Source: a virus
Direction: 5' to 3' (one strand)
Virus record (IMG/VR): IMGVR_UViG_3300032205_000008
Location: 1-41,252 of that record
DNA length: 41,252 nucleotides
The notes under the pieces were generated by a model that saw only the letters and a program-made list of their open reading frames with translations, had not been told where the DNA came from and ran no database searches. The translations under genes were made by a program, and so were the position numbers. Numbering within the stretch: the stretch's first letter is position 1; each line of letters opens with the position of its first letter. Positions 2,467-30,526 of this stretch are shown here, piece after piece.

Positions 2467-3405
2467 ATGGCGGTCATGTTCTCCTCGCCGACCAATACCT
2501 GGACGCCCGATCTGCCCGGCAAGACGGCGGCGTCGACCGGCCAGACGATTGACTACTCGGGCGGCGTCACGAGCTATCCGACCACAGGCGGCTCCGTCGT
2601 CATGGACGATCAGGGCCGCTACTGGTACATGTCCAGCGACCCGCGCTATGGCTACGCGCTCATCGCGCAAGGCTATGGCCCAGGCGAGACGCCGCCGGGC
2701 ACCAGCGATCAGACGCCGCCTCCCGCCGCAGGCCCGCCGCCCTCCGGCGGCGACGGCGGCGGGGGCGGCGGCTTCGGCGACATTCCCGCCGGGAGCCTGA
2801 CCGAGCGCTACGGCGGCACCTTCACGCCGCCGCCGCCCGTCAATCTCGGTGGCCCGGCAGGGATTCCCTACGTCCCGCAGACGCCGGTCTTCTCGCATCC
2901 GCAGTACACGCCGCCGCCCGCGTTCAACTTCCCGCAGTTCAATCTGCCGAACTGGGAAGAAGTCCTCCAGGATCCCGGCTATGTCTTCCGGCTCGGGCAG
3001 GGGAAACAGGCGCTTGAACAATCAGCGGCGGCGCGCGGCGTCCTCAACTCCGGCGGCACGCTCGGCGACGTCCTGAAGTTTGGCCAGGACTACGCCACGC
3101 AGGAATACGGGAACGTGTTTCAGCGCGACCTCCAGAAGTACCTCACCAACCGGGATACCGCGCTCCAGACCTACGGCACCAACTACGGGTCGCAGTACAT
3201 GGACCCGTACAAGCTGAATTACCAGGCCGCGCAGGACGAGTTTGCGCCGCAGATGACTGCCTATCAGACGCAGGCCCAGGCCGGGCAGCGGCAAAATGAG
3301 TTGGATTACTCCAACGCGTGGCAGCGGTATCTCCAGGATTACAACCAGTTCCGCAACTGGCAGAACGATACCTGGGACAAGGTGTCGTTCGCGGCCGGAG
3401 CCTAG
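2467..3405 (+). CDS. Internal virion / DNA-transfer protein
   Basis: This 312-residue protein has a disordered Pro/Gly-rich N-terminal half and a conserved C-terminal half. The signature DPGYVFRLGQGKQALEQSAA, then ARGVLNSGGTLGDVLKFGQD and an ATQEYGNVFQRDL helix, is widespread in podoviral proteins annotated as DNA transfer or internal virion proteins. The C-terminus is Gln/Asn/Tyr-rich and helical. It lies 9 bp after the previous gene and 2 bp before the next, as part of a four-gene ejection block. Confidence 0.78.
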   Translation: MAVMFSSPTNTWTPDLPGKTAASTGQTIDYSGGVTSYPTTGGSVVMDDQGRYWYMSSDPRYGYALIAQGYGPGETPPGTSDQTPPPAAGPPPSGGDGGGGGGFGDIPAGSLTERYGGTFTPPPPVNLGGPAGIPYVPQTPVFSHPQYTPPPAFNFPQFNLPNWEEVLQDPGYVFRLGQGKQALEQSAAARGVLNSGGTLGDVLKFGQDYATQEYGNVFQRDLQKYLTNRDTALQTYGTNYGSQYMDPYKLNYQAAQDEFAPQMTAYQTQAQAGQRQNELDYSNAWQRYLQDYNQFRNWQNDTWDKVSFAAGA

Positions 3406-3407
3406 TC

Positions 3408-5099
3408 ATGCCGCCGTTCCAGTATCAACAGTACGTCAACCCCTACGTCGGCACGATCGGGCAACTGATCGCGCGGCAGGGCGACACCCAGGCCGAGGCG
3501 CTCACCGCGACGGCGCAGGCGCAGGCGCAGGCGGCGCAGACCTCGGGACAAATCTGGGGACAAGCGATCGGCGGGATCGCGCGGTCGCTTGGCGGCATTC
3601 CCGGCGACATCACCGCGGCGCGGCGCGCCGCCGTCGAGGAGAAGCGCGCCGCCTCGCAAGCGCAACTCGATCAGATGAAGCTGCAGCAGGAGCGGTTCAA
3701 CTTACAGAAAGGGCAGCGGGAGCAGGAAGAGATCGCGCGGGCCGAACAGGTGTATGCCGCCGCCAGCGCCACGCGGCCAGACGGATCGGTGACGGTCGAC
3801 CCGGCGCAACTCGATGCGGCACTCGCGCAGGTGAACGTCAGCCCGGATAAGCGCGCGAAATACGTGGGCTACGCCGAGACGATGCGGACCACGATGGATA
3901 AGTTCAAAGAGGATCGCGCCAACCATCTGGGCGACGTCGCCCAAGGTGCGATTGAAGCGGACGCGCCGCTGCCCGTCGTGCTCGCGTCGGCCAGATTCGC
4001 GCAGCAGGCCGGGCTCCTCACGAAGGATCAGTACGACGCCTTCGCGCAGATGGCCACGGAGGCGCCGGATCTGAAGCAACTCCTGACGACCGTCCGGAAT
4101 AACGCGCCGAAGTACATGAATGAGAAGCCGGTGTTTGCGCCGCAGGGCTCGCCGGGCTTTCTCAGAGGCCCGACCTTTAGTTCGATCGAGCCACGGGCGA
4201 AGCCGAAGCCAGAGACCAATGCGGTCTACCGCGATGACCAGGGCATCGAGCATCCCGTCGTCTTCGATGAATCCTCCGGGAAATATCTCTATAACGGCCA
4301 GGATGTCTCGACACAAATCACGCGTCCGTCGCCGCCGCCGACGAAGGACACGGGCGCCGAACTGGACGCGAACTATGAGCGGCTGCACGCGAAAGAACTC
4401 CGGGGCGAGCCCCTCACCGAGTTAGAGAAAAGCCAACTCAAATCCTATGCGGATCGGAAAACGCTCGGGACGCGGACCACGTTCAATTTGAATCAGCCGG
4501 GGCGCGAGGATGCCGCTGCGGCGCGGAAGGCGCAACAAGAGCAGATCCGCGCCGATCGGTCGTACACCGAATCCAAGAACGATCTCGAACAGTTGACCAA
4601 GCCGGTGCGCGATCGCTCCGAACGCTTCGCCCGGTTTGCTGAAACCGTCAAAGCGGGCGGCCCGGTCGCCGATGCCGTACTCGCGCCGGAACTCCTGAGT
4701 ATCACCTCGGGCGGGATGGGCTCAGGCCTCCGCATGTCCGAAGCCGAGATCGGCCGCATTCTCGGCAGCACCAGCGCCTGGGGCGATCTGCTGAAGGCGG
4801 CCAGCCGGTTCAACCCGAACGAGTCGCAGACGATGCAACTCACGCCGACGCAGCGCGCCTCGATGAACAAGCTCGTGTCGGCGATTGCCGAGAAATCCCA
4901 GCAACAGTTCGCGATTTTGCAGCAGGCGCGGCAGGATCTCCTCGATGCGGGCGACGACGTGGCAGCCCATCGGCGCATCATGGCCGACACGAAAACCAGG
5001 ATCGAAGAGGTGCTGAATCCGAGCGCGCAGCGGCAGAGTGGCGCGCCGCGCCTACCGGCGGCGCGGGCCGCGCTGGTGAATCCGTTCCCGGAGAAGTGA
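3408..5099 (+). CDS. Internal virion / ejection protein, coiled-coil rich
   Basis: I take ATG 3408, just after the preceding stop, which gives 563 residues; the frame stays open further upstream but overlaps the previous gene. The protein is largely helical and Gln/Ala/Glu-rich, with a probable coiled coil near residues 65-120. A C-terminal helical block around LLSITSGGMGSGLRMSEAEI is a pattern seen in phage proteins of this operon position. No enzymatic motif is visible. Size, composition and order support a protein co-ejected with DNA. Confidence 0.72.
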   Translation: MPPFQYQQYVNPYVGTIGQLIARQGDTQAEALTATAQAQAQAAQTSGQIWGQAIGGIARSLGGIPGDITAARRAAVEEKRAASQAQLDQMKLQQERFNLQKGQREQEEIARAEQVYAAASATRPDGSVTVDPAQLDAALAQVNVSPDKRAKYVGYAETMRTTMDKFKEDRANHLGDVAQGAIEADAPLPVVLASARFAQQAGLLTKDQYDAFAQMATEAPDLKQLLTTVRNNAPKYMNEKPVFAPQGSPGFLRGPTFSSIEPRAKPKPETNAVYRDDQGIEHPVVFDESSGKYLYNGQDVSTQITRPSPPPTKDTGAELDANYERLHAKELRGEPLTELEKSQLKSYADRKTLGTRTTFNLNQPGREDAAAARKAQQEQIRADRSYTESKNDLEQLTKPVRDRSERFARFAETVKAGGPVADAVLAPELLSITSGGMGSGLRMSEAEIGRILGSTSAWGDLLKAASRFNPNESQTMQLTPTQRASMNKLVSAIAEKSQQQFAILQQARQDLLDAGDDVAAHRRIMADTKTRIEEVLNPSAQRQSGAPRLPAARAALVNPFPEK

Positions 5100-14598: not shown

Positions 14599-15708
14599 AT
14601 GAAGCGTGAGACGTTGGAGACCGGGATTTACCAGGACGCGTACGGGATTGAGGCCATCGTCACCGTGGGGACGGTGCAGCGGAGTAAGCGCTACCGCCTC
14701 GATGCCGACCGCGCCGAGATGCGCCTCTGGCGCGAGCAGACGCGGCACGAACTGAAGAAAGACCAGACAGCGAACGACGCGCAGCGCGCCGATGGCCGCG
14801 CCTTCCAGGCGTCCATCGACGCGTATCTGACACGGAAGATCGGGACGCCGAGCCATGACAGCGACCGCGCGCACTTGACTTCGTGGTTGCCGTACCTCGG
14901 ACGCTACGCGCGCCATCAGATCCGGCCAGAGCATATCGAGGCGGGCATCGCCGCGCGCCGCCTCGCTGGCATCAAGGCGTCCACGATCCGGCACCAACTC
15001 AAGATCCTGCGGCGGCTCTATACGGTGCTCGATGGTCGAGACGCGAATCACCCATTCAAGGGGATCACGCTGCCGCCGCGCCATCACGAGATCCCGATCC
15101 CAGTTCCCGCGGCCGTCATTGAAACCGTGGCGCGCAACCTGGACCGGGCCTGCGCGGGCGACCGGGGCCGCGACGGGCGCCGCCTCACGCCGACGACGCT
15201 CCGAACCCGCGCACAACAACGCGCTCGCTTTCTCGTGATGGTCACAACGGGGCAGCGACAGGTGCAGATCGGCCGGGCCAAACCGGGCCATGTCCATCTC
15301 GATGGTCCCGATCCGTGCTGGTATGTGCAGGCCGCCAAGGACGGCGCGGGCGCCGCGTTCCCGCTCTTGCCCGACGCCGTCGATGCGTGGCGCGCGTTCA
15401 TCGCCGCCGACGCCTGGGGATCGTTTAGCCTATCCGCCTTTCGGCAGTACCTCCGTCGTCAGGGCTGGCCAGCGGCGATCCGGGTCTACCAACTCCGGCA
15501 CACGTTCGCGATTGATCTCTTGCGGCAGGGTGTCCCGCTCGATGTCATCCAGGGCTTGCTCGGTCATCGCTCGATCGAAGTCACACGCAACTACTATGCG
15601 CCGTACCAAACGACGGTCGCGCGGGCGTTCCTCGCCCGTCGCAAGCTCAATCTATTCCTCGCGCCGACGCGCAAGGGACTGCGGCTCGCCGATCGGGGGC
15701 CAGCATGA
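14599..15708 (+). CDS. int: Tyrosine recombinase (phage integrase)
   Basis: This 369-residue site-specific recombinase would insert and excise the phage genome. The catalytic domain shows the family residues: Arg220 in TTGQRQVQIG, a Lys at 247 (QAAKDGAG), YQLRHTFA with Arg300 and His301, LGHRSIEVTR with His323, and the nucleophile Tyr332 (RNYYAPY). The usual His of the HxxR box is Tyr297, a tolerated variation. The N-terminal 60-170 region looks like the core-binding SAM-like domain. ATG 14599 is chosen because GGTGGAGG precedes it; the frame is open upstream without such a site. Its stop overlaps the Uma2-type gene by ATGA, which is unusual cargo. Confidence 0.93.
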   Translation: MKRETLETGIYQDAYGIEAIVTVGTVQRSKRYRLDADRAEMRLWREQTRHELKKDQTANDAQRADGRAFQASIDAYLTRKIGTPSHDSDRAHLTSWLPYLGRYARHQIRPEHIEAGIAARRLAGIKASTIRHQLKILRRLYTVLDGRDANHPFKGITLPPRHHEIPIPVPAAVIETVARNLDRACAGDRGRDGRRLTPTTLRTRAQQRARFLVMVTTGQRQVQIGRAKPGHVHLDGPDPCWYVQAAKDGAGAAFPLLPDAVDAWRAFIAADAWGSFSLSAFRQYLRRQGWPAAIRVYQLRHTFAIDLLRQGVPLDVIQGLLGHRSIEVTRNYYAPYQTTVARAFLARRKLNLFLAPTRKGLRLADRGPA

Positions 15709-16283
15709 GTGACGCGCCGCTCCGACAGACGCATTACACGATCGAGGAGTACCTCGACCTCGAACAGCACGCGGCGACGAAGCACGAATACGCCGACGGC
15801 ACGATCTACGCGATGGCAGGCGGCACGCCTGCCCACGCGCAACTCGCGGCGAACGTGATCATCCAACTCGGGCCGCAATTGAAGCGCTCTGGCTGCGCCG
15901 TCTTCACGTCCGACTTGCGCGTCCGCTCCGACAGCGGCCTGTGGACGTATCCCGATGTCTCAGTCGTCTGTGGCCCGCTCCGCTACGCGTGGCCGATGGC
16001 GGACGAGAACCGCGTCACGATCACAAACCCGTCGCTCGTCGTGGAAGTCACGAGCGACTCCACCGAAGACTACGACCGGGGCGTGAAACTCACGCACTAT
16101 CAGCAGACGCCGAGCGTGCAGACGGTGCTGTTTGTCTCGCACCGCGTGCCGCGCCTCACGGCTCATGACCGGGGGCGCTCGCTCTGGCGCCTCGTCCGGG
16201 AGGCTGGAACCGGCGACGTCCTCGAACTCGGCAGCGGCGTCACGCTCGCCGTGGATGACGTCTATGCAGGCGTCGATCTCTGA
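15705..16283 (+). CDS. Uma2-family (DUF820) PD-(D/E)XK-fold putative nuclease
   Basis: This 192-residue protein follows the Uma2 pattern: YTIEEYLDLEQ, then KHEYADGTIYAMAGG, AHAQLAANV, YPDVSVVCG (residues 82-90) and PSLVVEVTSDSTEDYDRGVK (109-128), then LTHYQ. Asp84, Glu114 and Lys128 fit the metal-binding core. The family is abundant in cyanobacteria and several soil phyla, where its function is still poorly known; it is uncommon as phage cargo. The ATG overlaps the integrase stop, so it would be expressed with the integrase, perhaps in lysogens as a moron. The substrate is unknown. Confidence 0.88.
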   Translation: MSDAPLRQTHYTIEEYLDLEQHAATKHEYADGTIYAMAGGTPAHAQLAANVIIQLGPQLKRSGCAVFTSDLRVRSDSGLWTYPDVSVVCGPLRYAWPMADENRVTITNPSLVVEVTSDSTEDYDRGVKLTHYQQTPSVQTVLFVSHRVPRLTAHDRGRSLWRLVREAGTGDVLELGSGVTLAVDDVYAGVDL

Positions 16284-16697: not shown

Positions 16698-16949
16698 ATG
16701 GCGTGCGTCGTGCCGTTTCCGCCTCGTTCTCGCTCGCGCTCGCTCCCGGCGGCGTCCCTGCGGGCCGCCACCATCGCAGACCGGGAAGCGGCGCTTGGTC
16801 AGCTTTCCACACCGGATCTCCTCGCCTGCGCCATGCGGCTGCAGCCGCGGATGATCAAGATTTACCGCCGCCACTTGATTCAGGATTTAGCGCGGGACAG
16901 CGGCGCGGCGATCGACCGCGAATTCAACGTGCGCGCCTCCGGCGCCTGA
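16698..16949 (+). CDS. Small basic protein, unknown
   Basis: The 83-residue protein starts at ATG 16698 after a long run of G. After an Arg/Ser-rich N-terminus it becomes a coherent helical domain (REAALGQLSTPDLLACAMRL, then MIKIYRRHLIQDLARDSG). Its 3' end overlaps the convergent repressor gene by 70 bp. There is no known motif. Confidence 0.55.
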   Translation: MACVVPFPPRSRSRSLPAASLRAATIADREAALGQLSTPDLLACAMRLQPRMIKIYRRHLIQDLARDSGAAIDREFNVRASGA

Positions 16950-17485
16950 TCGGCCGCCGGAGCGCGCCCGCGGCGGCGCATCTCGGCTTTCTCGTGGACG
17001 TGCGCCACGTGCGTCTCCACCTCCTCCAGGTCGAGGAGGAGCGCATCTTCGAGCCACCGGGAGACGTGGGCCGGGAGGGGCCACGGCGCCGTCAGGAGTT
17101 GCCGCACGGCGGCGCGGACCTCGCTTTCGGCATCGTGGTAGGCCCGCGCGATGTGCGCGTCTTCGCTGTTGAGGCCATCGGGCCACGCGCCCGCACTCGC
17201 GCCCTGCCCATCGAGCAGCCCTGGAATCGTGGCCTTGAAATAGGCGAGCACCCGCAGCAGGGTCCGCACGCTCACCGGCTTCCCGCGCTCGACCAACCCG
17301 TAGGTTTTCGCCGCCAGTTTTAAGCGCGCCGCGACTTGATCTTGATCAAGGCCCGCGGTGATCCGCTTGGCGCGGATGGCGCGGCCCAAGCGGCGCCGCT
17401 GATCCGGGGTGAGGCCGCGTCCATCCTCGAAGGGATCGAGCAGGGGCGTGACCATTCTTGGCATGTTTTGATACGACTTTAGCAC
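16880..17485 (-). CDS. CI-like repressor with HTH (XRE/lambda-like) domain
   Basis: The gene encodes 201 residues. Residues 31-88 form an XRE-type helix-turn-helix: RRLGRAIRAKRITAGLDQDQ, then VAARLKLAAKTYGLVERGK. The GTG at 17485 is preferred over the ATGs seven and ten codons later because GGAGGG lies nine bases before it. The C-terminal half is helical (SEVRAAVRQLL, then LEDALLLDLEEVETH). I see no LexA-type Ser/Lys peptidase motif, so induction by RecA-stimulated self-cleavage is not supported. It is divergent from the early operon across a region with phased repeats and is therefore the likely lysogeny repressor. Confidence 0.82.
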   Translation of the reverse strand: MLKSYQNMPRMVTPLLDPFEDGRGLTPDQRRRLGRAIRAKRITAGLDQDQVAARLKLAAKTYGLVERGKPVSVRTLLRVLAYFKATIPGLLDGQGASAGAWPDGLNSEDAHIARAYHDAESEVRAAVRQLLTAPWPLPAHVSRWLEDALLLDLEEVETHVAHVHEKAEMRRRGRAPAADQAPEARTLNSRSIAAPLSRAKS

Positions 17486-17649: not shown

Positions 17650-18015
17650 ATGAACGAATTGCCACCGACGGTCAATCCCGACTATGTCGTGCCACTTCTG
17701 CCGCCACCGCCCGATCCGTATCGCGTGGGCCAAGAACTCCCGAAACGTCTCGGCGTCGAGGACATGTGCCGGTGTTTCGGCCAAGACGGCTTGTCGATGT
17801 CGCGGTCGACGTTCCATCGCTGGCGGCGGCTCGGCAAGTTCGATCGCTTCGAGGTGCGGCCCCAGATTGGCCGCCGCGCCTGGAGCGGCGAACTCGTGGC
17901 GCGCTACCTGCGCTGCGAGGCGCCCAGCTCGCGCTTCATCACGACGTCACTGTCCCGCCGGGCCGCCGCCGCCGTGCGCGCGGCGCTGGCGCCCCAAGAC
18001 GGCGATCCGGCGTGA
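17650..18015 (+). CDS. Small DNA-binding protein (excisionase/MerR-like HTH), first early gene
   Basis: This 121-residue protein follows a strong TCGGAGG site. Residues 33-90 read LGVEDMCRCFGQDGLSMSRS, then TFHRWRRLGKFDRFEVRPQI and GRRAWSGELVARYL. This is the pattern of winged or AlpA-like helix-turn-helix modules, where a helix ending in W/FHRW is followed by a short hairpin. As the first gene opposite the repressor it may act as a Cro- or excisionase-like regulator. The C-terminal tail is Ala/Arg-rich. Confidence 0.7.
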   Translation: MNELPPTVNPDYVVPLLPPPPDPYRVGQELPKRLGVEDMCRCFGQDGLSMSRSTFHRWRRLGKFDRFEVRPQIGRRAWSGELVARYLRCEAPSSRFITTSLSRRAAAAVRAALAPQDGDPA

Positions 18016-19357: not shown

Positions 19358-19851
19358 GACCGCTCTATGCGTTGACGATGCGGGGGGCGCGGCAACGCTT
19401 GCCGCTCCATCCCGCGCCGGACCTCGGAGAACTCCTCCCCGAGACCAACCGGATGATCACGACGCATCGGCTAGAAGAGCACCTGACCTTTCGGCGCCAT
19501 GTCGGGTTCGTGATGCGGCAAGGCCCGTGTCTCGGCGAGCCGGTTCCCTGGCCCTCGGCGGAAGTGACCGCGGCCGAGTATCCGATGCCGCCGCTGCCAG
19601 TGAAAGGCGCGTACCGCACATGGCGCCGCGATGACCTGACGCGGAAGCCGCCGAAGCCGCCGAAACCGACGCGGCGGGATCGCATCGAGGCGCGGCTCAA
19701 AGCGGCGTGGTTCGCGTTGCCGCATCAGAGCCTGGGCTACGAAGACCGCGGCCAACTGCGGCAGTGCGTGGTGTGCGGGCAGTTCTTTGAAGGCGGCTCC
19801 GGCGCGGTCTGTGCGGTGCGAACCGCCGAGGCGAAAGCGAGGCAGCGATGA
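19354..19851 (+). CDS. Unknown protein with C-terminal Cys motif
   Basis: The gene encodes 165 residues, with ATG 19354 overlapping the previous stop (ATGA). The middle is a Lys/Pro-rich linker (RKPPKPPKPTRRDR), and the C-terminus has CVVCGQFFEGGSGAVC, a possible half zinc knuckle. No known family. Confidence 0.6.
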   Translation: MRPLYALTMRGARQRLPLHPAPDLGELLPETNRMITTHRLEEHLTFRRHVGFVMRQGPCLGEPVPWPSAEVTAAEYPMPPLPVKGAYRTWRRDDLTRKPPKPPKPTRRDRIEARLKAAWFALPHQSLGYEDRGQLRQCVVCGQFFEGGSGAVCAVRTAEAKARQR

Positions 19852-19949
19852 GGTTTCTTCGGCGCCTAATCATGCGCTATCGCTGGTACCGAATTCGGCG
19901 CCTGACCTATTCTCGCCTCGCCATTTTGAGACTACTTGGGATTAAGTGA
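19848..19949 (+). CDS. Possible 33-residue basic/hydrophobic peptide
   Basis: ATG 19848 overlaps the previous stop by ATGA and opens a 33-codon frame (MRFLRRLIMRYRWYRIRRLT...) that is Arg-, Leu- and Tyr-rich. The coupling supports translation; the composition suggests membrane or nucleic-acid contact. Too short to identify. Confidence 0.4.
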   Translation: MRFLRRLIMRYRWYRIRRLTYSRLAILRLLGIK

Positions 19950-20042
19950 GACTAAGTAATGGCGGGAGTCCTAGTAGTGAGCAAAAGTGAGCGCAAGTGG
20001 CGCGGTTCTGCGTGCGTTCCCTTTATCTAATTAGCTAGATCT

Positions 20043-20066
20043 GTACGTACGTACGTACGTACGTAC
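20043..20066. repeat. (GTAC)6 microsatellite
   Basis: Six perfect tandem copies of the self-complementary tetramer GTAC are followed by TGTAC. The whole tract can fold on itself. Confidence 0.9.
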
Positions 20067-20151
20067 TGTACTTAGTTAGTACCTTCTGTATATGTTTCTT
20101 GGAGAGGCGTGTGTGGTGGTTTGTGTGGTCTTTTACGTGACACGACAAAGA

Positions 20152-20189
20152 GGCGCGTGTTTTTCCCATTAAGGGAAAACACACGCGCC
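20152..20189. terminator. Large stem-loop before the 119-residue gene
   Basis: GGCGCGTGTTTTTCCC pairs with GGGAAAACACACGCGCC around ATTAA, with one small bulge, forming a stem of about 16 bp. There is no T-tract after it on the plus strand. It lies 50 bp upstream of ATG 20239, so it may be a terminator, an attenuator or an RNA-stability element. Confidence 0.5.
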
Positions 20190-20238
20190 CATCCTCGCGC
20201 ATAGATCGGTCCACTGATCTCTATATGAGGTACAGGCG

Positions 20239-20598
20239 ATGAAACTCGCAGCGGCGATCACGACGGCGATCACGGCGTGGCACCGCGGGACCGTCGCGGG
20301 GGCGACCCGCGAAGAACGCGAATACGCGCTCGAAGAAACGCTGCGGGACGTGTGGCCGTACGAGCGCGAATGGCACTACCTGTGCTCGGCGTGCCGCGAT
20401 ACCGGGCTCGTGGATCAGGTCTGCGAGCCGGGATCGCGCTGCAACGGACGCTCGACCACGGGGCAGACGCGATTCTGCGCCGAGCATCCGGCGTATACGC
20501 ACACCTACGGGACGCCCTGCGCCTGTGCGCTCGGCGCCCGCTTCCGGCCACGCGCCACGCCCGCGGCGGCGCCGCGCACCCGGCCCGGACGGCCTTGA
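20239..20598 (+). CDS. Cys-rich small protein, putative zinc-binding
   Basis: The gene encodes 119 residues. A helical N-terminal half (TREEREYALEETLRDVWP) precedes a Cys/His-rich region: YLCSACRDTGLVDQVC, then RFCAEHPAYTHTYGTPCAC. The CxxC...C...C...CxC spacing suggests a zinc ribbon, vaguely like DnaJ-type repeats. The ATG has a GAGG site. Confidence 0.68.
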   Translation: MKLAAAITTAITAWHRGTVAGATREEREYALEETLRDVWPYEREWHYLCSACRDTGLVDQVCEPGSRCNGRSTTGQTRFCAEHPAYTHTYGTPCACALGARFRPRATPAAAPRTRPGRP

Positions 20599-22894: not shown

Positions 22895-23211
22895 AACTCG
22901 AACCCTGGATCCTTCCCGCGTATGAAGTCCTGCGCGCCGCGGGCAAGCCGCAGTACTACCTGCTGCTCTCCGAGGACGAAGTCCTGGCGCTCAGCTTCGG
23001 CGTGGTGCTCTCCCGGACGTGTGTGCAGGCGCGGCATGCCCTTGATACGCTCGACACCGAGTGCGCCCGCCATGCGCGGGCGCGCTCGCGGACACACGTT
23101 CGGGAGACGTCACGGCGTGCCCGGATAGCGGTAGATGTGCAAGCCGCCGCACGCCGAGAGGCGCCAATAGAGACGGACCCCGACGTTCCGGTTCAACGCG
23201 GCGACGACTAG
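22891..23211 (+). CDS. Small protein at the end of the early operon, unknown
   Basis: The 106-residue protein is coupled by ATGA to the previous gene. The first 60 residues look folded (WILPAYEVLRAAGKPQYYLL, then LSEDEVLALSFGVVLSRTCV); the remainder is Arg/Ala-rich and overlaps the convergent gene (23110-23439) by 102 bp. The C-terminal part may therefore be poorly constrained. Confidence 0.58.
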   Translation: MKLEPWILPAYEVLRAAGKPQYYLLLSEDEVLALSFGVVLSRTCVQARHALDTLDTECARHARARSRTHVRETSRRARIAVDVQAAARREAPIETDPDVPVQRGDD

Positions 23212-23439
23212 CTCGTTGCCGCTCCAGCCGCCGGTCGCGAAGCGGACGTAGCGATTCTGCGCGGCCTCGGGATCGGCCACGATCCCGGCCTCGGCCTCGC
23301 GCAATAGCTCGCTCGCGAAGTCTGGCCAATGCCACGCGGCGCGGGCCAAGTCGAGCGCCGCGGCCGGGTCGAGTGTGGCAATGGCCTGCAGCGTCTCCTC
23401 GCTCGGATAGCCGTCGGCGTCGAAGGTCGGCTCGGTCAC
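23110..23439 (-). CDS. Conserved small phage protein (GGWSGNE type)
   Basis: The gene encodes 109 residues. VRFATGGWSGNELVVAALNR and the final RLYWRLSACGGLHIY match a small protein found in many phages, usually with a TGGWSGNE signature; the function is not established. ATG 23439 overlaps the stop of the upstream membrane protein. Confidence 0.8.
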   Translation of the reverse strand: MTEPTFDADGYPSEETLQAIATLDPAAALDLARAAWHWPDFASELLREAEAGIVADPEAAQNRYVRFATGGWSGNELVVAALNRNVGVRLYWRLSACGGLHIYRYPGTP

Positions 23440-23794: not shown

Positions 23795-24001
23795 TCACCC
23801 GTCCTGATCGTCCTGATCCGATCGTCCTGATCGTGGCGCGTCCACGAGCCGACGGACGAGCGCCCGCCAGTCCGCGGCGCGGGGATGCCCCGTGACGCGG
23901 GTCTCTTCGATGACGCGCTGGTTGACCCGGACGATGACGTGGTAGTTCGCGGCGTCGTCCGTGCCGGTCGCGTCATTCTGAAAGGTGATGAGTAACGCCA
24001 T
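23795..24001 (-). CDS. Small protein with iteron-encoded C-terminus
   Basis: The gene encodes 68 residues. The first 55 look like a compact beta-alpha protein (ALLITFQNDATGTDDAANYH, then VIVRVNQRVIEETRVT). The last codons (RSDQDDQDG) are produced by three copies of the GATCAGGAC repeat running into the gene. The AGGA of another copy serves as its ribosome site eight bases before ATG 24001. Confidence 0.65.
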   Translation of the reverse strand: MALLITFQNDATGTDDAANYHVIVRVNQRVIEETRVTGHPRAADWRALVRRLVDAPRSGRSDQDDQDG

Positions 24002-24019
24002 GGTCCCGTCCTGATCGGC

Positions 24020-24181
24020 TCAGGGACGTGTTCTCGACGCCGCGTCCTGATCGGGGCGTCCTGATCGGCGCGGCCGGGGTTTCTTGGCGTTGGCTCGGGC
24101 GGCGCGTGTCTTGGCTTCGCTCTTGACCCGGCCGCCGAGGCGCCCCAGCGCGACGGCGGCGCGGTTCTTCGGGGGGATCAT
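24020..24181 (-). CDS. Small basic protein (LGRLGGRVKSEAKT type)
   Basis: Starting at ATG 24181 this is 53 residues: MIPPKNRAAVALGRLGGRVK, then SEAKTRAARANAKKPRPRR. The ALGRxGGxxKSEAKxxAARANxKK motif is widespread in small phage and mobile-element proteins. The C-terminus (RPDQDAASRTRP) is again formed by the GATCAGGAC repeat. The start overlaps the previous stop by ATGA. Confidence 0.72.
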   Translation of the reverse strand: MIPPKNRAAVALGRLGGRVKSEAKTRAARANAKKPRPRRSGRPDQDAASRTRP

Positions 24182-24408
24182 GTGGATGGCCCGCCTTTCT
24201 CCATCAGGAGCTTCTTCAGTTCTTCGACGCTCTCGCGCAAGTCGGCCACGCTCGTCTGTAGCGCGTCCTCTCGCTGCTCGACTCGTTCGAGCGTGGCGAG
24301 AAACAGCGCCACACATTTCGCGTGATTGGCAAACGCGCTCGTGAGCGATTCTTGGAAACGTGTGTCGGTATCAATGAACAGTTCGCGATTGGCGTCGTAG
24401 TCGCTCAT
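24178..24408 (-). CDS. Small coiled-coil protein, unknown
   Basis: The gene encodes 76 residues. The C-terminal half is a leucine-heptad helix (LERVEQREDALQTSVADLRE, then SVEELKKLLMEK). GAAAGAGAG precedes ATG 24408. It is the first gene of the leftward block read from the extended -10 promoter at 24429. Confidence 0.65.
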   Translation of the reverse strand: MSDYDANRELFIDTDTRFQESLTSAFANHAKCVALFLATLERVEQREDALQTSVADLRESVEELKKLLMEKGGPST

Positions 24409-24428
24409 GTGCTCTCTTTCTCATGATG

Positions 24429-24461
24429 AGTATAGCAGACGAAGCGCTTGGCTGATGTCAA
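24429..24461 (-). promoter_or_regulatory. Leftward promoter with extended -10
   Basis: On the minus strand TGCTATACT (TATACT at 24434-24429) is an extended -10 box. A TTGACA at 24461-24456 is 21 bp away, too far for an ideal -35. It would transcribe 24408 to 23110. Confidence 0.55.
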
Positions 24462-24497
24462 GTGACAGTGACGTGTCCTGATCCGGAGGCGTGGAAG

Positions 24498-24992
24498 ATG
24501 TCCATCCTGATCCTCTGCCGCCGTCCTGATCCGCCGCTCCGGGACGTGTGCCGGAGACTCCGTCCTGATCGTCCTGATCGTCCTGATCCGACCGTCCTGA
24601 TCGGGTGCCATCCTGATCGTCGTCCTGATCGTCCTGATCCCGCGATCTGTGGCACGCGGCGCGCGTACCGCCTTGGCTGCCGCTGTGTCGCGTGCCGATC
24701 GGCCAGCGCTCGCACACGACAGGCGCAGCGGACCCGACAGGCGCATGGTACGCGGTCGCTCGACACTCGGATCGATCGCGCGGAAGCGTTTGCGCTCTGG
24801 CGCCAGCTACGCCGGGAGTTACCAGGACGGATCATCGGGTTCAGGTTGCGGCGGCGCAGTCAGCATGTCACGCAGCGTACGTTGCTCAAGCTGCGCCGCC
24901 TGACTCGGTTGTACCTCTCCCCAGCCTTAGATGTCGGTTGCAGGCAAGCTGGCGATACAGACTCGGATCATGTGATCGGGAAACGTACCTAA
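24498..24992 (+). CDS. Small Cys/Arg-rich protein (GTxxAYxxGCRCxxCR type) with repeat-encoded N-terminus
   Basis: The gene encodes 164 residues from ATG 24498, eight bases after GGAGG. Residues 3-50 are encoded by the TCCTGATC array (RRLRPDRPDRPDP, then HPDRRPDRPDP). The following ICGTRRAYRLGCRCVACRSA matches a widespread phage motif (HGTxxGYxxGCRCxxCRxA) with three Cys that may bind metal. The C-terminal half is basic and helical (ALWRQLRRELPGRIIGFRLR). It could bind DNA, possibly the iterons themselves; that is inference. Its end overlaps the convergent gene by 66 bp. Confidence 0.62.
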   Translation: MSILILCRRPDPPLRDVCRRLRPDRPDRPDPTVLIGCHPDRRPDRPDPAICGTRRAYRLGCRCVACRSASARTRQAQRTRQAHGTRSLDTRIDRAEAFALWRQLRRELPGRIIGFRLRRRSQHVTQRTLLKLRRLTRLYLSPALDVGCRQAGDTDSDHVIGKRT

Positions 24993-25250
24993 TTCGCCAA
25001 TCGAGCGGACCGCTGCCGGAATATAAATCGGGGGTGGATCCAAGAGCACACCCCCGCGCCATGGTCGACCGTGACTTGGATCTTTTCCGGCGTACACCAG
25101 GGTACGGCCGTCTCGATGCATCCTGACATTGAGCCAGTAGGTGATATCACCGATCCGATCGTGGGTGTGTGCGACCACGGGCCAGTCTGCTTCCAGGATG
25201 CGGACCGCTCTATCGGTGAGTGTGATCATACGTGTGAGACGTGTAGGCAT
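24927..25250 (-). CDS. Small protein at the end of the cassette, unknown
   Basis: From ATG 25250, preceded by CAGGAACACGT, this is 107 residues. ITLTDRAVRILEADWPVVAH and DITYWLNVRMHRDGRTLVYA suggest a small alpha/beta fold. A shorter start seven codons in is possible. No family recognised. Confidence 0.62.
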   Translation of the reverse strand: MPTRLTRMITLTDRAVRILEADWPVVAHTHDRIGDITYWLNVRMHRDGRTLVYAGKDPSHGRPWRGGVLLDPPPIYIPAAVRSIGELGTFPDHMIRVCIASLPATDI

Positions 25251-25287
25251 ACGTGTTCCTGAGAGCAAGCAAAAACCGCGTGTACGT

Positions 25288-25321
25288 GAAGACTGGCCAG
25301 TCTTCATAGACTGGCCAGTCT
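25288..25321. repeat. Two tandem perfect palindromes (GACTGGCCAGTC)
   Basis: GAAGACTGGCCAGTCTTC (25288-25305) and AGACTGGCCAGTCT (25308-25321) share the same 14-bp core, with centres 18 bp apart. They lie between the 57- and 107-residue genes. They may be dimer binding sites or a terminator; no T-tract follows on the minus strand. Confidence 0.75.
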
Positions 25322-25340
25322 TTCCAGGTTCGTTCGTGAG

Positions 25341-25514
25341 TTACTCGCGCGTCCAGTCTTGCGGCAGAAATCCCCCGCGCGTGATCCATTCATCGAGCGC
25401 AAGCACTAGCTCGGCCAGTCGTTCTGCGTCTTGTAAATCCGTTTCGGCATGCTGGGAAAAGAGAATGTTTTGCGCGATCGTTCGCTGCTCTTTGAGATTG
25501 GCGTTAGGGTCCAT
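25341..25514 (-). CDS. Small conserved phage protein (LDEWxxxGGFLPxxW type)
   Basis: The 57-residue protein begins MDPNANLKEQRTIAQNILFS and ends LALDEWITRGGFLPQDW. This acidic small protein is frequent in phages and often marks early or middle genes; its role is unknown. The conserved start-associated element lies 7 bp upstream of the ATG. Confidence 0.8.
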   Translation of the reverse strand: MDPNANLKEQRTIAQNILFSQHAETDLQDAERLAELVLALDEWITRGGFLPQDWTRE

Positions 25515-25551
25515 GGTGTGTTGTGCCTTTCGTGTGTCGTGTGTGGGAAAG

Positions 25552-25591
25552 GGAAGGATGGCTAGTCCGGGATTGGACTAGCCATCCTTCC
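25552..25591. terminator. Perfect 17-bp stem-loop after the VWA-peptidase gene
   Basis: GGAAGGATGGCTAGTCC (25552-25568) pairs perfectly with 25575-25591 over a 6-nt loop, 9 bp downstream of the VWA gene stop. On the minus strand CTTTCCC follows, a weak U-run. It probably ends or attenuates the leftward transcript. Confidence 0.72.
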
Positions 25592-25600
25592 AGGTGTGCG

Positions 25601-26839
25601 TTACTCGTCTATCCTGACTGTTTCGCCGAATGATCCGATATTCTCCGTCGTGCAGGTCCACAGCACGGGATACTCGGGTTCCGTGTCGGGTTCGCGTCCG
25701 TCAAGGTCAGTCAGGTAGATGAGCGCAACCGGCGTTTCGCCGGACTGCTCGATATGCTCGAAGACGGGCCTGAAATCGGTACCGCCACCGCCGCACGGCG
25801 TGAGTGTCACGATATCGCCACGGTCGAAAGAATCGACCCGATGGACTTCGGTATCACAGTAGAGAACGTCGATTGTCGTCGGCTGGACTTCGTCAGCAAT
25901 GGCTTGGATTTCAGCGGAGAATTGTGCGAGTAGGACATCGTCCACACTCCCGGAGGTATCGACCGCGATCGCCAGCTTGCCGATCGTCTGGCTATGCAGG
26001 GAAGGCAGATACAAGCCAGCCGACAGATAGCGGACGGACGGACGCGTCCACGTGTAATCCGCCTTGCACGCTTCGGAGAGAAAGCGCCGGAGGATCGATC
26101 GCCAGTCCACGCGCGCGCGTGTAATGGTGTCGACTAAACGATCAAGACCCGTGGTACTCGTTCCGGCCATGTTCGCGGCTTGCTCCGCTTGAATCGTCGC
26201 TTGCTGCCATTCCGCCGGAGACATCTGATCGCCTGACTCAGCAGATTCCGCGGGCGCATCCATGACACCGCCGAATGGATCACTCATTCCAGGTGCAGGC
26301 GTACCGTCGCCGTTGTTCTCTCCGTCTCCGTCTCCGTCTCCAGGAGCATTCTGGCTCTCGTCTGACTCTCCGTTTTCGTTCTCGTCGTTCTCGTCGTTCT
26401 GCTCTTCGTCCTGCGGTCGATCGGCCGGAAGTCTAGAGAAAAACCATTCGGCTGATTTCCCTTTGTCGGCTGCCTCACACTGCAGGATGCCGCTCGGAAG
26501 GCTGAAGCCAGAGCGGATTAACTCGTCGTTAATCGCGTAGTCGGCCGCGATATTCCATTTCCGACCGTCACGTCCTTCTCTTCGCCATGGATGGCCTAAG
26601 GCGCAATGTAAGACTTCGTGGGCTAGCAACCCTTTCAGGACGTCGTGTGAAAGGGTTGCCGTGAAGGTTGGGTTGTAAAAGAGATGCGTTCCGTCGGTTG
26701 CGGCTGTGTCCAGGTCACGACGTTCGACAATCCGGAGATTCAAAGCCAGCACGCCGAAAAACGGATGGTCTAAGACCAAACCGCTCCGTGCGGCAATGAT
26801 GCGGTTGTACTGCTCCGTGTTCGTGGGAGTCTTGATCAT
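25601..26839 (-). CDS. Metallopeptidase-VWA protein (DUF2201-like)
   Basis: This 412-residue protein has two domains. Residues 1-135 form a zinc-peptidase-like domain with HEVLH (H74, E75, H78) and a following GHPW, typical of DUF2201_N. Residues 136-205 are an acidic Asp/Glu/Asn/Gly linker. Residues 285-412 are a VWA-like domain with the MIDAS motif DTSGS (294-298), GGGTDF (T354, D355) and TDLDG (D378). Such proteins pair with MoxR-type AAA+ ATPases, which remodel targets through a metal-dependent VWA contact. The gene is 2 bp after the 297-residue gene with its own GGGAG site. The cell process it serves in a phage is unknown. Confidence 0.88.
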   Translation of the reverse strand: MIKTPTNTEQYNRIIAARSGLVLDHPFFGVLALNLRIVERRDLDTAATDGTHLFYNPTFTATLSHDVLKGLLAHEVLHCALGHPWRREGRDGRKWNIAADYAINDELIRSGFSLPSGILQCEAADKGKSAEWFFSRLPADRPQDEEQNDENDENENGESDESQNAPGDGDGDGENNGDGTPAPGMSDPFGGVMDAPAESAESGDQMSPAEWQQATIQAEQAANMAGTSTTGLDRLVDTITRARVDWRSILRRFLSEACKADYTWTRPSVRYLSAGLYLPSLHSQTIGKLAIAVDTSGSVDDVLLAQFSAEIQAIADEVQPTTIDVLYCDTEVHRVDSFDRGDIVTLTPCGGGGTDFRPVFEHIEQSGETPVALIYLTDLDGREPDTEPEYPVLWTCTTENIGSFGETVRIDE

Positions 26840-26841
26840 GA

Positions 26842-27735
26842 TTAGACTCCCTGCGGCATGAACGCGGACATTTTGTCGAGGATGTCTTGAGCCGCACGCG
26901 CGGTCGTAGCACGCGCGTGCTGTGACGTCTTCAGATCATCGGATTCGAGAGTGGCGAGTGTTCGCGACACTTCCGATCGCATGCTTTCCAACCCTGAGTC
27001 GTTCGTGACATTCAACCGTGTGAGTGCGTCGCAGACTTCCCGGACATTGCCAAGCAAGGTGCTGTGAAATCTGGCCCGCGTACCATCGGGTACGGCTGCC
27101 GTTTCGATCATGCGATCACGAAGCGCGACGATCACAGACTGCAGCCGCGTCCACGCATCCTGTACGGCAATGGCCGTTGCCCGTTCGACCCGTGAGGCGA
27201 TCGACGCTTCAATCGACTGGACTTGATCGGCCGCAAGGTCAGCGCGGATATCGCCGGTTGCGGGAATCGGCGTGTATTCGACCTTGAGCGAAAATTTTCC
27301 CGCGATCGCATCAACCGAGGGATAGTCGCTCTCCCGGTACAATCCGTTGAGTCTGTGGCGCGCCAGATCACGCAATCTGGGGTAGTCGAACACGAACGCC
27401 GAAACCGCGTTATCAAGGGCTGACTGCCGCTGACGGTACCACGCCGTGTACGTCTGGTACTCCGCCGTGGGCAGCAAACGCCAGCCTTCGTCACTCCACG
27501 CCAAGGTGGACGCGTAGTGCTCTCTCCGGATTTCGCGTGCGAGTGTCAAGAGCGCTTCGTACGAGCTATCCTTGCCGGTGATCAGCCGTTTGTTGTACCG
27601 GCCCGCGTCATTGCTGGCCCCATGCGCGGTGTGGACTTCCGAGGTTGCGACCTTGTCAAATTTCGTCGCTTGCCACGTCGAAATCCCGAGACTGACCAAG
27701 AGTGCCCGTGTGTGAATTCGTGTGTCTGTCTGCAT
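26842..27735 (-). CDS. Helical protein between VWA and MoxR genes (DUF3150-like?)
   Basis: The gene encodes 297 residues. It is mostly helical, with an early ISTWQATKFDK segment, a Tyr/Trp/Arg-rich stretch (EYQTYTAWYRQRQSALDNAV) and a central FVFDYPRLRDLARHRLNGLY. The C-terminal part has coiled-coil character. In other mobile elements a protein of this kind (DUF3150) sits with a CobS/MoxR-like ATPase and a CobT/VWA-like protein; I suspect it is related but cannot confirm. It has its own promoter, operator and start-associated element upstream. Confidence 0.72.
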   Translation of the reverse strand: MQTDTRIHTRALLVSLGISTWQATKFDKVATSEVHTAHGASNDAGRYNKRLITGKDSSYEALLTLAREIRREHYASTLAWSDEGWRLLPTAEYQTYTAWYRQRQSALDNAVSAFVFDYPRLRDLARHRLNGLYRESDYPSVDAIAGKFSLKVEYTPIPATGDIRADLAADQVQSIEASIASRVERATAIAVQDAWTRLQSVIVALRDRMIETAAVPDGTRARFHSTLLGNVREVCDALTRLNVTNDSGLESMRSEVSRTLATLESDDLKTSQHARATTARAAQDILDKMSAFMPQGV

Positions 27736-27776
27736 TGTTCTGTGCCTTTCGTGTGTGAATGTCTAACCCGGAATCA

Positions 27777-27807
27777 AGGATACCATGATAACCAGATAGG
27801 CTGTCAA
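27777..27807 (-). promoter_or_regulatory. Cassette promoter P1 with palindromic operator
   Basis: TTGACA (27807-27802) and TATCCT (27782-27777) lie 19 bp apart on the minus strand. The palindrome GGATACCATGATAACC (27778-27793) overlaps the -10. It precedes the 297-residue and VWA genes. Confidence 0.68.
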
Positions 27808-27822
27808 GGGAATACGTACAGG

Positions 27823-27862
27823 AAACGAGCGGAGCGGAAAATAAATTCCGCTCCGCTCGTTT
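27823..27862. terminator. Strong intrinsic terminator downstream of the MoxR gene
   Basis: AAACGAGCGGAGCGGAA (27823-27839) pairs perfectly with 27846-27862 over a 6-nt AT loop. On the plus strand the stem is followed by T4G. The 17-bp stem is 16 bp after the MoxR stop, so it separates the two leftward transcripts of the cassette. Confidence 0.82.
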
Positions 27863-27877
27863 TTTGCGTTGAGCGCG

Positions 27878-28900
27878 TTAGCGGGCTTCGCCGTTCATCA
27901 GCTGGCCGACTTTCCCAGTCTGCAGCCTGACTGACGCTTCGGTGTGCTGCGTCTCCGGATTCCGGCGCCAGCAATCGCGTACCAAAAGCACCGAAAATTC
28001 ACCATGTGCGTCGATTGCAAGCCTCGTCGCAAATTGTCCGATCCGATCGAAATTGCCGGGTGTCGCACGGTACGCCAAGCCAGCACAGAGCGCGTACAGG
28101 GAGCCGGGGTTGTCCGGGTACGCCGTTCGCGTCGGATCAGCCAAGAGCGCATCAATACTCGGCAATTCGCGGTACATCCGGCGAAACGCCAAGAGCGCGG
28201 TTGCGTCTGACTGCCCAACGGCGCCGGAGAGTACCTCCGGCAGCATGCTTTCCGGCAGATCCATGCTCAGGAGCTTGGACGCATGTGCCCATGTTCTTGG
28301 TGAAGGTGAATTCGTCAGATCAGCGGACGGAGCGAACGCGCTCAGCCGATCGGGATGGAAGCGCAAATAGGCGATGATTTCGGGCGCCACGCTATTGTCC
28401 AACGCCCACAAGCACCACTCGTTCATATCGGCGACAAGCTCAACGATCGTCAGAAAGCGCGATTTCACGGGTTCGAGTACGCCGCTAACCCCCGCGCGAT
28501 CGGTCCGCCTATTCGTGGCAGCAATCATCGTCACGCAATCGGGGAGCGCGTGGCCATTCACTCGACGGGCCAACAGTAGCTGCATGTGCGCCGCCTGTAC
28601 GGCCGGAGACGCTTGGCCGAGATCATCCAAAAACCACAAGGTGTCGCGCGTCGCCTTGATGGCTTGTGCCAGTTCGCCAAACGGAACAAACGTTGCGGAA
28701 CTGCCTTCCAATTTCGGAAAGCCTTTGACGTCGGTGGGATCACTGACCGCGGGGTGCGAGAGAATCAGGTCGGCTCCAGCATCGGCCGCGGCCTTCGTGG
28801 CAATGTCGGTTTTCCCGATGCCCGGCGCGCCCGAAATCAGGATCGGTTCACGCTTCCGAATTGCGGCCGCGAGTAAAATTCTCAGTTCTGACGGTTTCAT
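27878..28900 (-). CDS. MoxR-type AAA+ ATPase
   Basis: The gene encodes 340 residues from ATG 28900, chosen because the start-associated element precedes it. It shows Walker A GAPGIGKT (residues 24-31), a MoxR-typical SDPTDVKGFP insert (53-62), Walker B LWFLDD (88-93), sensor 1 ATNRR (N130) and a probable arginine finger in EPVKSRF (R148). A lid helical domain follows. MoxR ATPases form hexamers that remodel or activate substrates together with VWA partners. The partner gene lies two genes downstream. The target is unknown. Confidence 0.9.
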   Translation of the reverse strand: MKPSELRILLAAAIRKREPILISGAPGIGKTDIATKAAADAGADLILSHPAVSDPTDVKGFPKLEGSSATFVPFGELAQAIKATRDTLWFLDDLGQASPAVQAAHMQLLLARRVNGHALPDCVTMIAATNRRTDRAGVSGVLEPVKSRFLTIVELVADMNEWCLWALDNSVAPEIIAYLRFHPDRLSAFAPSADLTNSPSPRTWAHASKLLSMDLPESMLPEVLSGAVGQSDATALLAFRRMYRELPSIDALLADPTRTAYPDNPGSLYALCAGLAYRATPGNFDRIGQFATRLAIDAHGEFSVLLVRDCWRRNPETQHTEASVRLQTGKVGQLMNGEAR

Positions 28901-28931
28901 GGTTCTGTGCCTTTCGTGTGTCGAACGTGTT

Positions 28932-29147
28932 TTACAGGGTGTCGATGATACGGACGTGGTACTCCGGGTTCGCGGTTTGGAGCGCAACGCGGACCCGTTC
29001 TGGGTCCGCGATTGCGCGAAACGCCGCCGGAATCTCGTACGTCTCGAAGAGATCGAAAATGCGCGCGGCTTCGGGCGTATGGCGGTAGTCCACGATATAG
29101 CCTTCAGAGCGCCGGTAGACGGGCAGAACGGGCAAGGTCGGATTCAT
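28932..29147 (-). CDS. Small protein upstream of MoxR, unknown
   Basis: From ATG 29147 this is 71 residues: PVYRRSEGYIVDYRHTPEAA, then RIFDLFETYEIPAAFRAIAD and a final strand. The start-associated element lies 7 bp upstream. It resembles small phage proteins of unknown role and could be a substrate or adaptor of the ATPase. Confidence 0.68.
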   Translation of the reverse strand: MNPTLPVLPVYRRSEGYIVDYRHTPEAARIFDLFETYEIPAAFRAIADPERVRVALQTANPEYHVRIIDTL

Positions 29148-29181
29148 CGGTGCGTGTGCCTTTCGTGTGTGTGAGTGCCGG

Positions 29182-29253
29182 TTACCGGCCTGCATAGGCG
29201 TAGCAGACGCCTAGCAGGCCGGAGACGAACCAAACGCTGCAAAGGATGATCAT
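29182..29253 (-). CDS. 23-residue membrane micropeptide
   Basis: ATG 29253, with GGAG eight bases upstream, encodes MIILCSVWFVSGLLGVCYAY and three more residues: a single apolar helix with two Cys. It sits in the gap between two cassette genes. The good ribosome site supports translation. Confidence 0.5.
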   Translation of the reverse strand: MIILCSVWFVSGLLGVCYAYAGR

Positions 29254-29258
29254 GGTGG

Positions 29259-29417
29259 CTACTCCGTGACGCGCTTCGCCGTGACGCGTTTCCCGCCTGC
29301 GAGCCATTCCCAGCAATTGCCGCTTGCGTCTCGCTTTACCTTGCCGCGCATCGCGGTCGGCTCGCTGACTACTTCATATCTGAGCCATTCCGCCTTGGTG
29401 ATAATCGTTGCTTTCAT
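29259..29417 (-). CDS. Small basic protein, first gene of the cassette
   Basis: The 52-residue protein starts MKATIITKAEWLRYEVVSEP and ends with a basic strand-rich tail containing NCWEWLAGGKRVTAKRVTE. ATG 29417 is preferred over an ATG two codons earlier because the spacing to the variant start-associated element then matches the other copies. It is closest to the cassette promoter P2. Confidence 0.65.
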   Translation of the reverse strand: MKATIITKAEWLRYEVVSEPTAMRGKVKRDASGNCWEWLAGGKRVTAKRVTE

Positions 29418-29453
29418 GTCCATGTCCCTTTCGTGAATGAATGCCGCAAGACA

Positions 29454-29481
29454 AGGATAGCATGGTAGCCAAGATAGTCAA
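29454..29481 (-). promoter_or_regulatory. Cassette promoter P2 with palindromic operator
   Basis: TTGACT (29481-29476) and TATCCT (29459-29454) are 16 bp apart on the minus strand. GGATAGCATGGTAGCC (29455-29470) matches GGNTANCATGNTANCC and overlaps the -10. It lies 50 bp from the small terminase start, so a bound protein could affect both sides. Confidence 0.68.
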
Positions 29482-29530
29482 TAGGAAAATGCGTCTCACA
29501 GAAAAATATTTTCGTGGCACTCTCTAGCAC

Positions 29531-30115
29531 ATGTCCGCACCGCTCCTGAACGGACCGCGCGTACGCCCGAACGGTCTCACGTTCCGGCAAGAGCGCTTCA
29601 TTGCTGAGTACGCGATCGATGGACACGCGACCCGAGCCGCTATTCGTGCAGGCTATCGGCCGACGAACGCGTCCGATTGTGCCAGTAACCTGCTCAGACT
29701 CCCCAAAATCCAACAGGCGATCGAAGTACACAAAGCGCAGCAATTCCGGCGCGCCGATCTGACCGCGGCCCGTATCCTCGAAGAATTGCGCCGTGTGGCG
29801 ACGTTTGACCCGCGTTCGTGCTTTACCGAAACGGGCAATTTGAAGCCGATTCATGAATTAACAGGGGAGCAGGCAAGCTCCATAGCAGCCGTAGACGTCG
29901 TTAAGCGCAACCTGACGTCTGGCGATGGAAGTATCGATACCGTCTACAGGATTAAGTTCTGGGATAAATTGAGAGCGTTAGAGTTGCTGGCGAAGCATTT
30001 CGGCCTACTCGTAGAGAGGCTAGAGGCTCACGGAACCATTCACATTACGTGGGGCGAGAGCGAAAGTGTCCAACCCGTGACGGTCGACGTAACCCCGAGC
30101 ATAAATCCCCAATGA
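29531..30115 (+). CDS. terS: Terminase small subunit
   Basis: This 194-residue protein binds the packaging site and loads the large terminase. LTFRQERFIAEYAIDGHATR, then AAIRAGYRPTNASDCASNLL and RLPKIQQAIEVH, is the helix-turn-helix N-terminal domain of the Terminase_2 type. AARILEELRRVATFDPRSCF and KLRALELLAKHFGLLVERLE form the oligomerisation part. There is no obvious Shine-Dalgarno before ATG 29531, so the start may be leaderless or weakly translated. Unusually, 552 bp of structured non-coding DNA separates it from the large subunit. Confidence 0.9.
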   Translation: MSAPLLNGPRVRPNGLTFRQERFIAEYAIDGHATRAAIRAGYRPTNASDCASNLLRLPKIQQAIEVHKAQQFRRADLTAARILEELRRVATFDPRSCFTETGNLKPIHELTGEQASSIAAVDVVKRNLTSGDGSIDTVYRIKFWDKLRALELLAKHFGLLVERLEAHGTIHITWGESESVQPVTVDVTPSINPQ

Positions 30116-30390
30116 ATCACTCTGAGTCTGATACTCCATATTATGTAAACCTGTAAGTGATTGATTCTTTGCGGCTTAGCCTCTTTCCGCTCACAGACAC
30201 GTACCGGTAAATGCCGTTTCCGGGCACGCGTCCTAGAAATCGGCCGATCGAAAACCACCCATCGCCGTCGCCGCGCCGCTGCATGTGGCCTTAGTAGGCC
30301 ATCCTCAGTTTCTCGTCTGTGTGTTCTCTTAGGCCAATAGCCTCACCTTACTGCTCACTTTCTTCTAGGCCAATAGAACCTACTTCTTTC

Positions 30391-30431
30391 TCTCTCGCGC
30401 GGATACGCTTGGGGCTTCTCCGCGCGAGAGA
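30391..30431. repeat. 13-bp perfect stem-loop
   Basis: TCTCTCGCGCGGA (30391-30403) pairs with 30419-30431 over a 15-nt loop. Confidence 0.7.
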
Positions 30432-30445
30432 CGGCAGCAGTGCGT

Positions 30446-30479
30446 CTGGACGTCTAGCTGGACGTCTGGCTGGACGTCT
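30446..30479 (+). repeat. Three tandem CTGGACGTCT repeats, 12-bp period
   Basis: Perfect copies occur at 30446-30455, 30458-30467 and 30470-30479, separated by AG and GG. Each contains the palindrome GACGTC. They are candidate small-terminase binding sites. Confidence 0.85.
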
Positions 30480-30526
30480 TGTTGTTGAGTGAGTGAGCGG
30501 GTTTTCGTGTCTTTCTCTGCTCTTTT

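Follow-up and report, generated by a model that had tools for sequence, protein, structure and literature searches.

Arrays of short, asymmetric DNA sites that all point one way are known in phages from the L5-like mycobacteriophages, whose 13-mer operators and stoperators are bound by a monomeric repressor (PMC9283540). Cluster A mycobacteriophages such as L5 and TipsytheTRex carry more than 20 of these sites, oriented alike with respect to transcription and some of them intergenic. At the RNA level, CsrB of E. coli holds ~18 CAGGA(U/A/C)G elements and 22 GGA motifs in 369 nt (PMC7652899, PMC5027483). Direct repeats, partly in tandem, also make up iteron origins (P1, lambda O, the RepA_N of PLE), and short direct repeats form the parS-type arrays of extrachromosomal prophages. 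The locus described here resembles each of these in some respect: its sites are short, asymmetric, direct, partly tandem and in part intergenic, they lie in a temperate phage, and the opposite strand reads as CAGGAYG repeats in CsrB-like number and density, partly in short predicted hairpin loops.

The window, i.e. the whole 41,252-base IMG/VR virus record that was analyzed, encodes a P22-like portal, small and large terminase, a major head protein and a tyrosine integrase, and is a temperate P22-like podovirus. A Uma2-family endonuclease gene (15705-16283) lies immediately behind the integrase; its matches on plasmids are too varied to name a host. An HTH repressor-like gene at 16880-17455(-) faces a weakly matched HTH gene at 17650-18015(+). 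Between 25.6 and 29 kb there is a lower-GC module encoding an AAA ATPase, a 297-aa protein and a DUF2201 protein. It is contained in a low-GC island (25000-30500, ~57% vs 66% G+C), and ~50% identical three-gene modules are found in other viral contigs (L251-L260). Two perfect inverted repeats (25289-25322 and 25552-25591; arms of 15 and 17 bp, loops of 4 and 6) sit between the array and the DUF2201 module and are possible terminators or a module boundary.

On the plus strand, the octamer TCCTGATC is found 16 times within 838 bp (23802-24639), with starts at 23802, 23811, 23825, 24009, 24045, 24059, 24476, 24505, 24524, 24563, 24572, 24581, 24595, 24611, 24623 and 24632. Both the count and the single orientation agree with the earlier note, and its description of 9-bp tandems mixed with looser spacing is borne out by start-to-start distances of 9 to 417 bp (9, 14, 184, 36, 14, 417, 29, 19, 39, 9, 9, 14, 16, 12 and 9). 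In 100 dinucleotide shuffles of the window, a comparison that the note had proposed, the word appeared 1.26 times on average and four times at most; outside the array it is present three times in the window, always on the minus strand (34033, 37257 and 37575). The 16-copy one-way array is real and far beyond chance. The full site can be written CRTCCTGATCS, i.e. C-R-TCCTGATC-S (~10 bp): the eight core positions are invariant in all 16 copies, position -2 is C in 15 of them, position -1 is always G or A (14 G, 2 A) and position +8 is always G or C. No one-mismatch copy was found on the plus strand between 23000 and 25500. Flanking sequences of non-tandem copies show 30-31% identity to one another, compared with 26% for random 10-mers. 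As the spacers are unrelated and the flanks hardly more alike than random sequence, the unit is not a larger repeat; together with the exact cores and the lack of near-misses, this indicates that the unit is a short word, either held by selection or spread by copying very recently. The features of the region are listed in Table 1.

Table 1. Site clusters and neighboring genes of the array (window coordinates).
Feature	Coordinates	Strand	Description
Cluster 1	23802..23832	+	Three CRTCCTGATCS sites, spacing 9, 14; last codons of leftward gene 23795-24001
Single site	24009..24016	+	Minus strand GATCAGGAcgggaccATG: AGGA 7 nt before start codon of 23795-24001(-)
Cluster 2	24045..24066	+	Two sites, spacing 14; 3' tail of small leftward gene ending 24020
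Cluster 3	24476..24639	+	Ten sites; leftward operon leader / 5' part of weak rightward ORF
34-bp composite	24570..24603	+	Two tandem sites, CGAYCG, third site; near-copy of 23800-23833
Leftward operon gene 1	24178..24408	-	76 aa, coiled-coil-like; no relatives found
Small basic leftward gene	24020..24187	-	Start approximate, ~53-55 aa; tail PDQDAASRTRP partly from array copies
68-aa leftward gene	23795..24001	-	Tail SDQDDQDG from array copies; no relatives found
109-aa gene, downstream in leftward group	23110..23439	-	No relatives found
Rightward ORF	24498..24992 (start 24462 or 24498)	+	164 aa, Cys/Arg-rich (CGTRRAYRLGCRCVACR)

A short leftward operon (24178-24408, ~24020-24187 and 23795-24001, on to 23110) has the array in its leader, at its junctions and in its 3' tails; three genes of this operon score as coding like secure genes. 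All 16 copies lie outside the better supported genes or at their extreme 3' end. As the earlier note had it, the array crosses the 3' ends of two leftward genes (three copies in 23795-24001(-) and two in the gene ending at 24020) and reaches the 5' end of a rightward one, with ten copies in the stretch from the start of 24178-24408(-) to the 5' part of 24462/24498-24992(+). The copy at 24009, in the Shine-Dalgarno position of 23795-24001(-), had not been singled out there. In the 5' part of the rightward ORF the array is translated as RPDRPDP. This ORF has a coding score of -0.21 bits per codon (+0.08 to +0.59 for training genes), its profile matches are marginal only and its structure model is unusable, which makes its proposed role as the binding protein doubtful. 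A search of the array region for sigma-70-like promoters gave none, which counts against the DNA-level reading preferred below. Two other explanations of the word were considered and rejected. Spacings such as 14, 29, 19 and 16 (14, 14, 29, 19, 14, 16 and 184 are not multiples of three) exclude an in-frame coding repeat, and a start-associated sequence does not fit, as only the 24009 copy (1/16) is clearly at a start codon.

One orientation in three separate clusters, together with confinement to a single operon, favors selection for a directional site. As the unit is a short word, we tentatively prefer to read the locus as a directional array of asymmetric DNA recognition sites for a putative regulator. 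A sequence-specific factor, encoded by the phage or the host, would bind these sites. The ten sites of cluster 3, which precede the first gene by 68-231 bp, might then be an operator or loading platform for the leftward operon, extended by the copies within the operon, which could act as road-blocks or titration sites. The earlier proposal of a DNA-binding array thus stands in part: with an exact word, one orientation and unrelated spacers, the locus is best read as some kind of binding array, but not in the form of an origin (see below). Cluster A stoperators differ in being 13-mers of another sequence that are distributed genome-wide and present at early promoters, whereas the sites here form one 838-bp cluster and none lies at the HTH repressor switch (~17.45-17.65 kb). 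For the same reason, namely that TCCTGATC is absent from the switch 16880-17455(-)/17650-18015(+), a stoperator or operator array of the immunity repressor was rejected. Against the preferred DNA array, the binder was not identified, and close relatives with the array region were not found in the collections searched. Operators normally vary, and it is uncommon for as many as 16 of them to be wholly exact.

That exactness would also follow if a short repeat had recently spread by slippage and recombination and been tolerated at gene ends and between genes, an explanation without function that we consider improbable. There is no decayed copy among the 16, and 9-bp tandem runs are present. Furthermore, the 34-bp composite is 97% identical to its near-copy 770 bp away, a hint that some copies arose by copying, which counts against the DNA array. 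Selection against insertion into genes would give the confinement to tolerant positions, and if the array is neutral, divergence since the spread is below 0.023 per site (an upper bound). However, most spacers are unrelated, so that the isolated copies are not accounted for by duplication of a larger unit. The window yielded no other dense family of such words, and the single orientation is kept across separate clusters.

The main rival to the DNA array acts at the RNA level, which the earlier note did not consider. Read from the leftward strand, the sites become 16 GAUCAGGAY(G/A) repeats of the CsrB type, and the leftward transcript might bind CsrA/RsmA through them, either soaking up host CsrA or being regulated by it; on balance we think this rather unlikely. 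The leftward strand carries 15 CAGGAYG and one CAGGACA, the orientation fits the operon in 16 of 16 cases, and all 16 CAGGAY elements would lie on one transcript. With 10 elements in 164 nt, the ten-site cluster has a density comparable to CsrB. The 24009 copy is a Shine-Dalgarno sequence at the right distance for 23795-24001(-); it is, however, predicted to be buried in a hairpin (AGGA unpaired probability 0.04), unlike the GGA of CsrB-type sponges, which sits in single-stranded loops. Over the array as a whole the AGGA has a mean unpaired probability of 0.62, compared with ~0.44 for control AGGA in the same genome (p=0.008, with tandem copies non-independent). Tandem GAUC-AGGAC-GAUC can form hairpins. 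The leader fold does not exceed shuffled sequences in stability (z -0.06). When the region was scanned openly against Rfam, CsrB came up on the leftward strand at 24558-24620, but at 11.5 bits (E 2.9) against a gathering score of 71 this match is far below threshold, is not significant and rests on the same information as the motif. The likeness to CsrA elements was itself drawn after the motif had been seen. CsrA has no need of GATC, yet GATC is invariant in the array, and no csrA was found in the phage. Compared with CsrB, CsrC and RsmZ, the repeats also differ in being embedded in a protein-coding operon, with a strict GATC before each element and no Rfam-level match. A still bolder version, in which the leader and junctions of the operon double as decoy RNA and the 16 CsrA-type elements form a sponge for host CsrA/RsmA built into a phage mRNA, appears less probable again. 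Weighing the two levels, we regard DNA as somewhat more likely than RNA.

Altogether, we judge the array to be a further example of an already known kind, the binding-site array; the RNA-sponge alternative is less likely and would be more surprising. An exact short array running one way is a sign that a phage and a binding factor interact strongly. An operator array here would point to a putative asymmetric DNA binder in a little-known podovirus group. Should the array act as RNA instead, the phage would be making a sponge for a global host regulator, and a limited literature search found no precedent for that.

The earlier note had found an iteron origin attractive, with an initiator that had escaped recognition. 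Same-direction short repeats, partly in tandem, would fit an origin, and there are iterons within coding sequence, for example those of lambda O (mentioned in PMC7157519). The note was also right that no other initiator is recognized: searches of the record for Rep_3 (PF01051), phage O (PF04492) and DnaB (PF03796) proteins were negative. The same result weighs against an origin at the array, and a profile search matched the proteins next to it to no initiator family. Nor is there an AT-rich unwinding element beside the array, where the lowest 60-bp G+C is 47%; the AT-rich minima of the window are near 14.3, 20.0, 29.45 and 30.1 kb. Unlike iteron origins, the array has a unit of only ~10 bp, is spread over 838 bp through gene ends and is interrupted by genes. 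A better origin candidate is a 390-bp AT-rich non-coding gap with repeats of its own at 19.85-20.24 kb. We therefore find the iteron origin unsupported and consider it very unlikely. The gap itself (19851-20239) goes down to 37% G+C and contains TACG repeated in tandem, recurring AGTGAG words and a long hairpin (GGCGCGTGTTTTTCCC / GGGAAAACACACGCGCC), and is a plausible origin or control region. A partition site, also suggested in the note, finds no backing either: a search for ParB (PF02195) found none and the phage has an integrase, in which it differs from extrachromosomal prophages with parS-type arrays.

We also looked for the array and its neighbors in other genomes. Phages with 61-71% identical terminase (L155/L156 and others) lack both the array and the neighboring genes, and relatives of the DUF2201/AAA module (L129-L153, L251-L260) have no TCCTGATC array. 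Three operon proteins (24178-24408, 23795-24001 and 23110-23439) had no detectable relative when scanned against IMG/VR, and the array region had no DNA match in phage or plasmid collections. In GTDB genomes there was no match to the array-type triple (spacing 9 then 13 or 14, of which there are two here), and a terminase profile search of the same genomes found nothing. When IMG/VR was scanned for three TCCTGATC copies with gaps of 30 bases or less, at least 120 stretches were returned, those among the matches listed being mostly in-frame Asp-Pro or Asp-Gln-Asp type repeats and plain minisatellites. A stricter word gave 20 stretches, 18 of which are spaced in multiples of three except for some additional copies farther away, while the other two (L020 and L088) are 14- and 28-bp minisatellite-like.

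Several other arrays were seen in these collections. A different, low-GC phage (L034/L115) has a similar-looking set of five CATCCTGATCGAC, not taken as homologous; at 5614-5705 of L034 (reverse-complement coordinates) and in L115, CCATCCTGATCGAC repeats neighbor an HTH gene and another that resembles a primase/helicase, with the same core word as the array but in an unrelated phage. L230 (1846-3500) and L259 (10769-11200), otherwise different phages, have dispersed GAG...CCG motifs in common at ~18/36-bp spacing (GAGAGTGCCG/GAGCGTAGCCG and GAGCGAGCCG/GAGCACCG). L231, a phage whose terminase is 39% identical, has an iteron-like array of ACCCCGGCAAAT with ~22-bp spacing at 2946-3090. Finally, L138 carries six to seven GTGGAACCA words in a non-coding leader at 3427-3682 (spacings 13, 148, 9, 56, 10 and 9) beside a parS-like GTTCCACGTGGAAC, and this GTGGAACCA/GTTCCACGTGGAAC arrangement is kept in place in the related contigs L139, L141, L143, L144 and L133.
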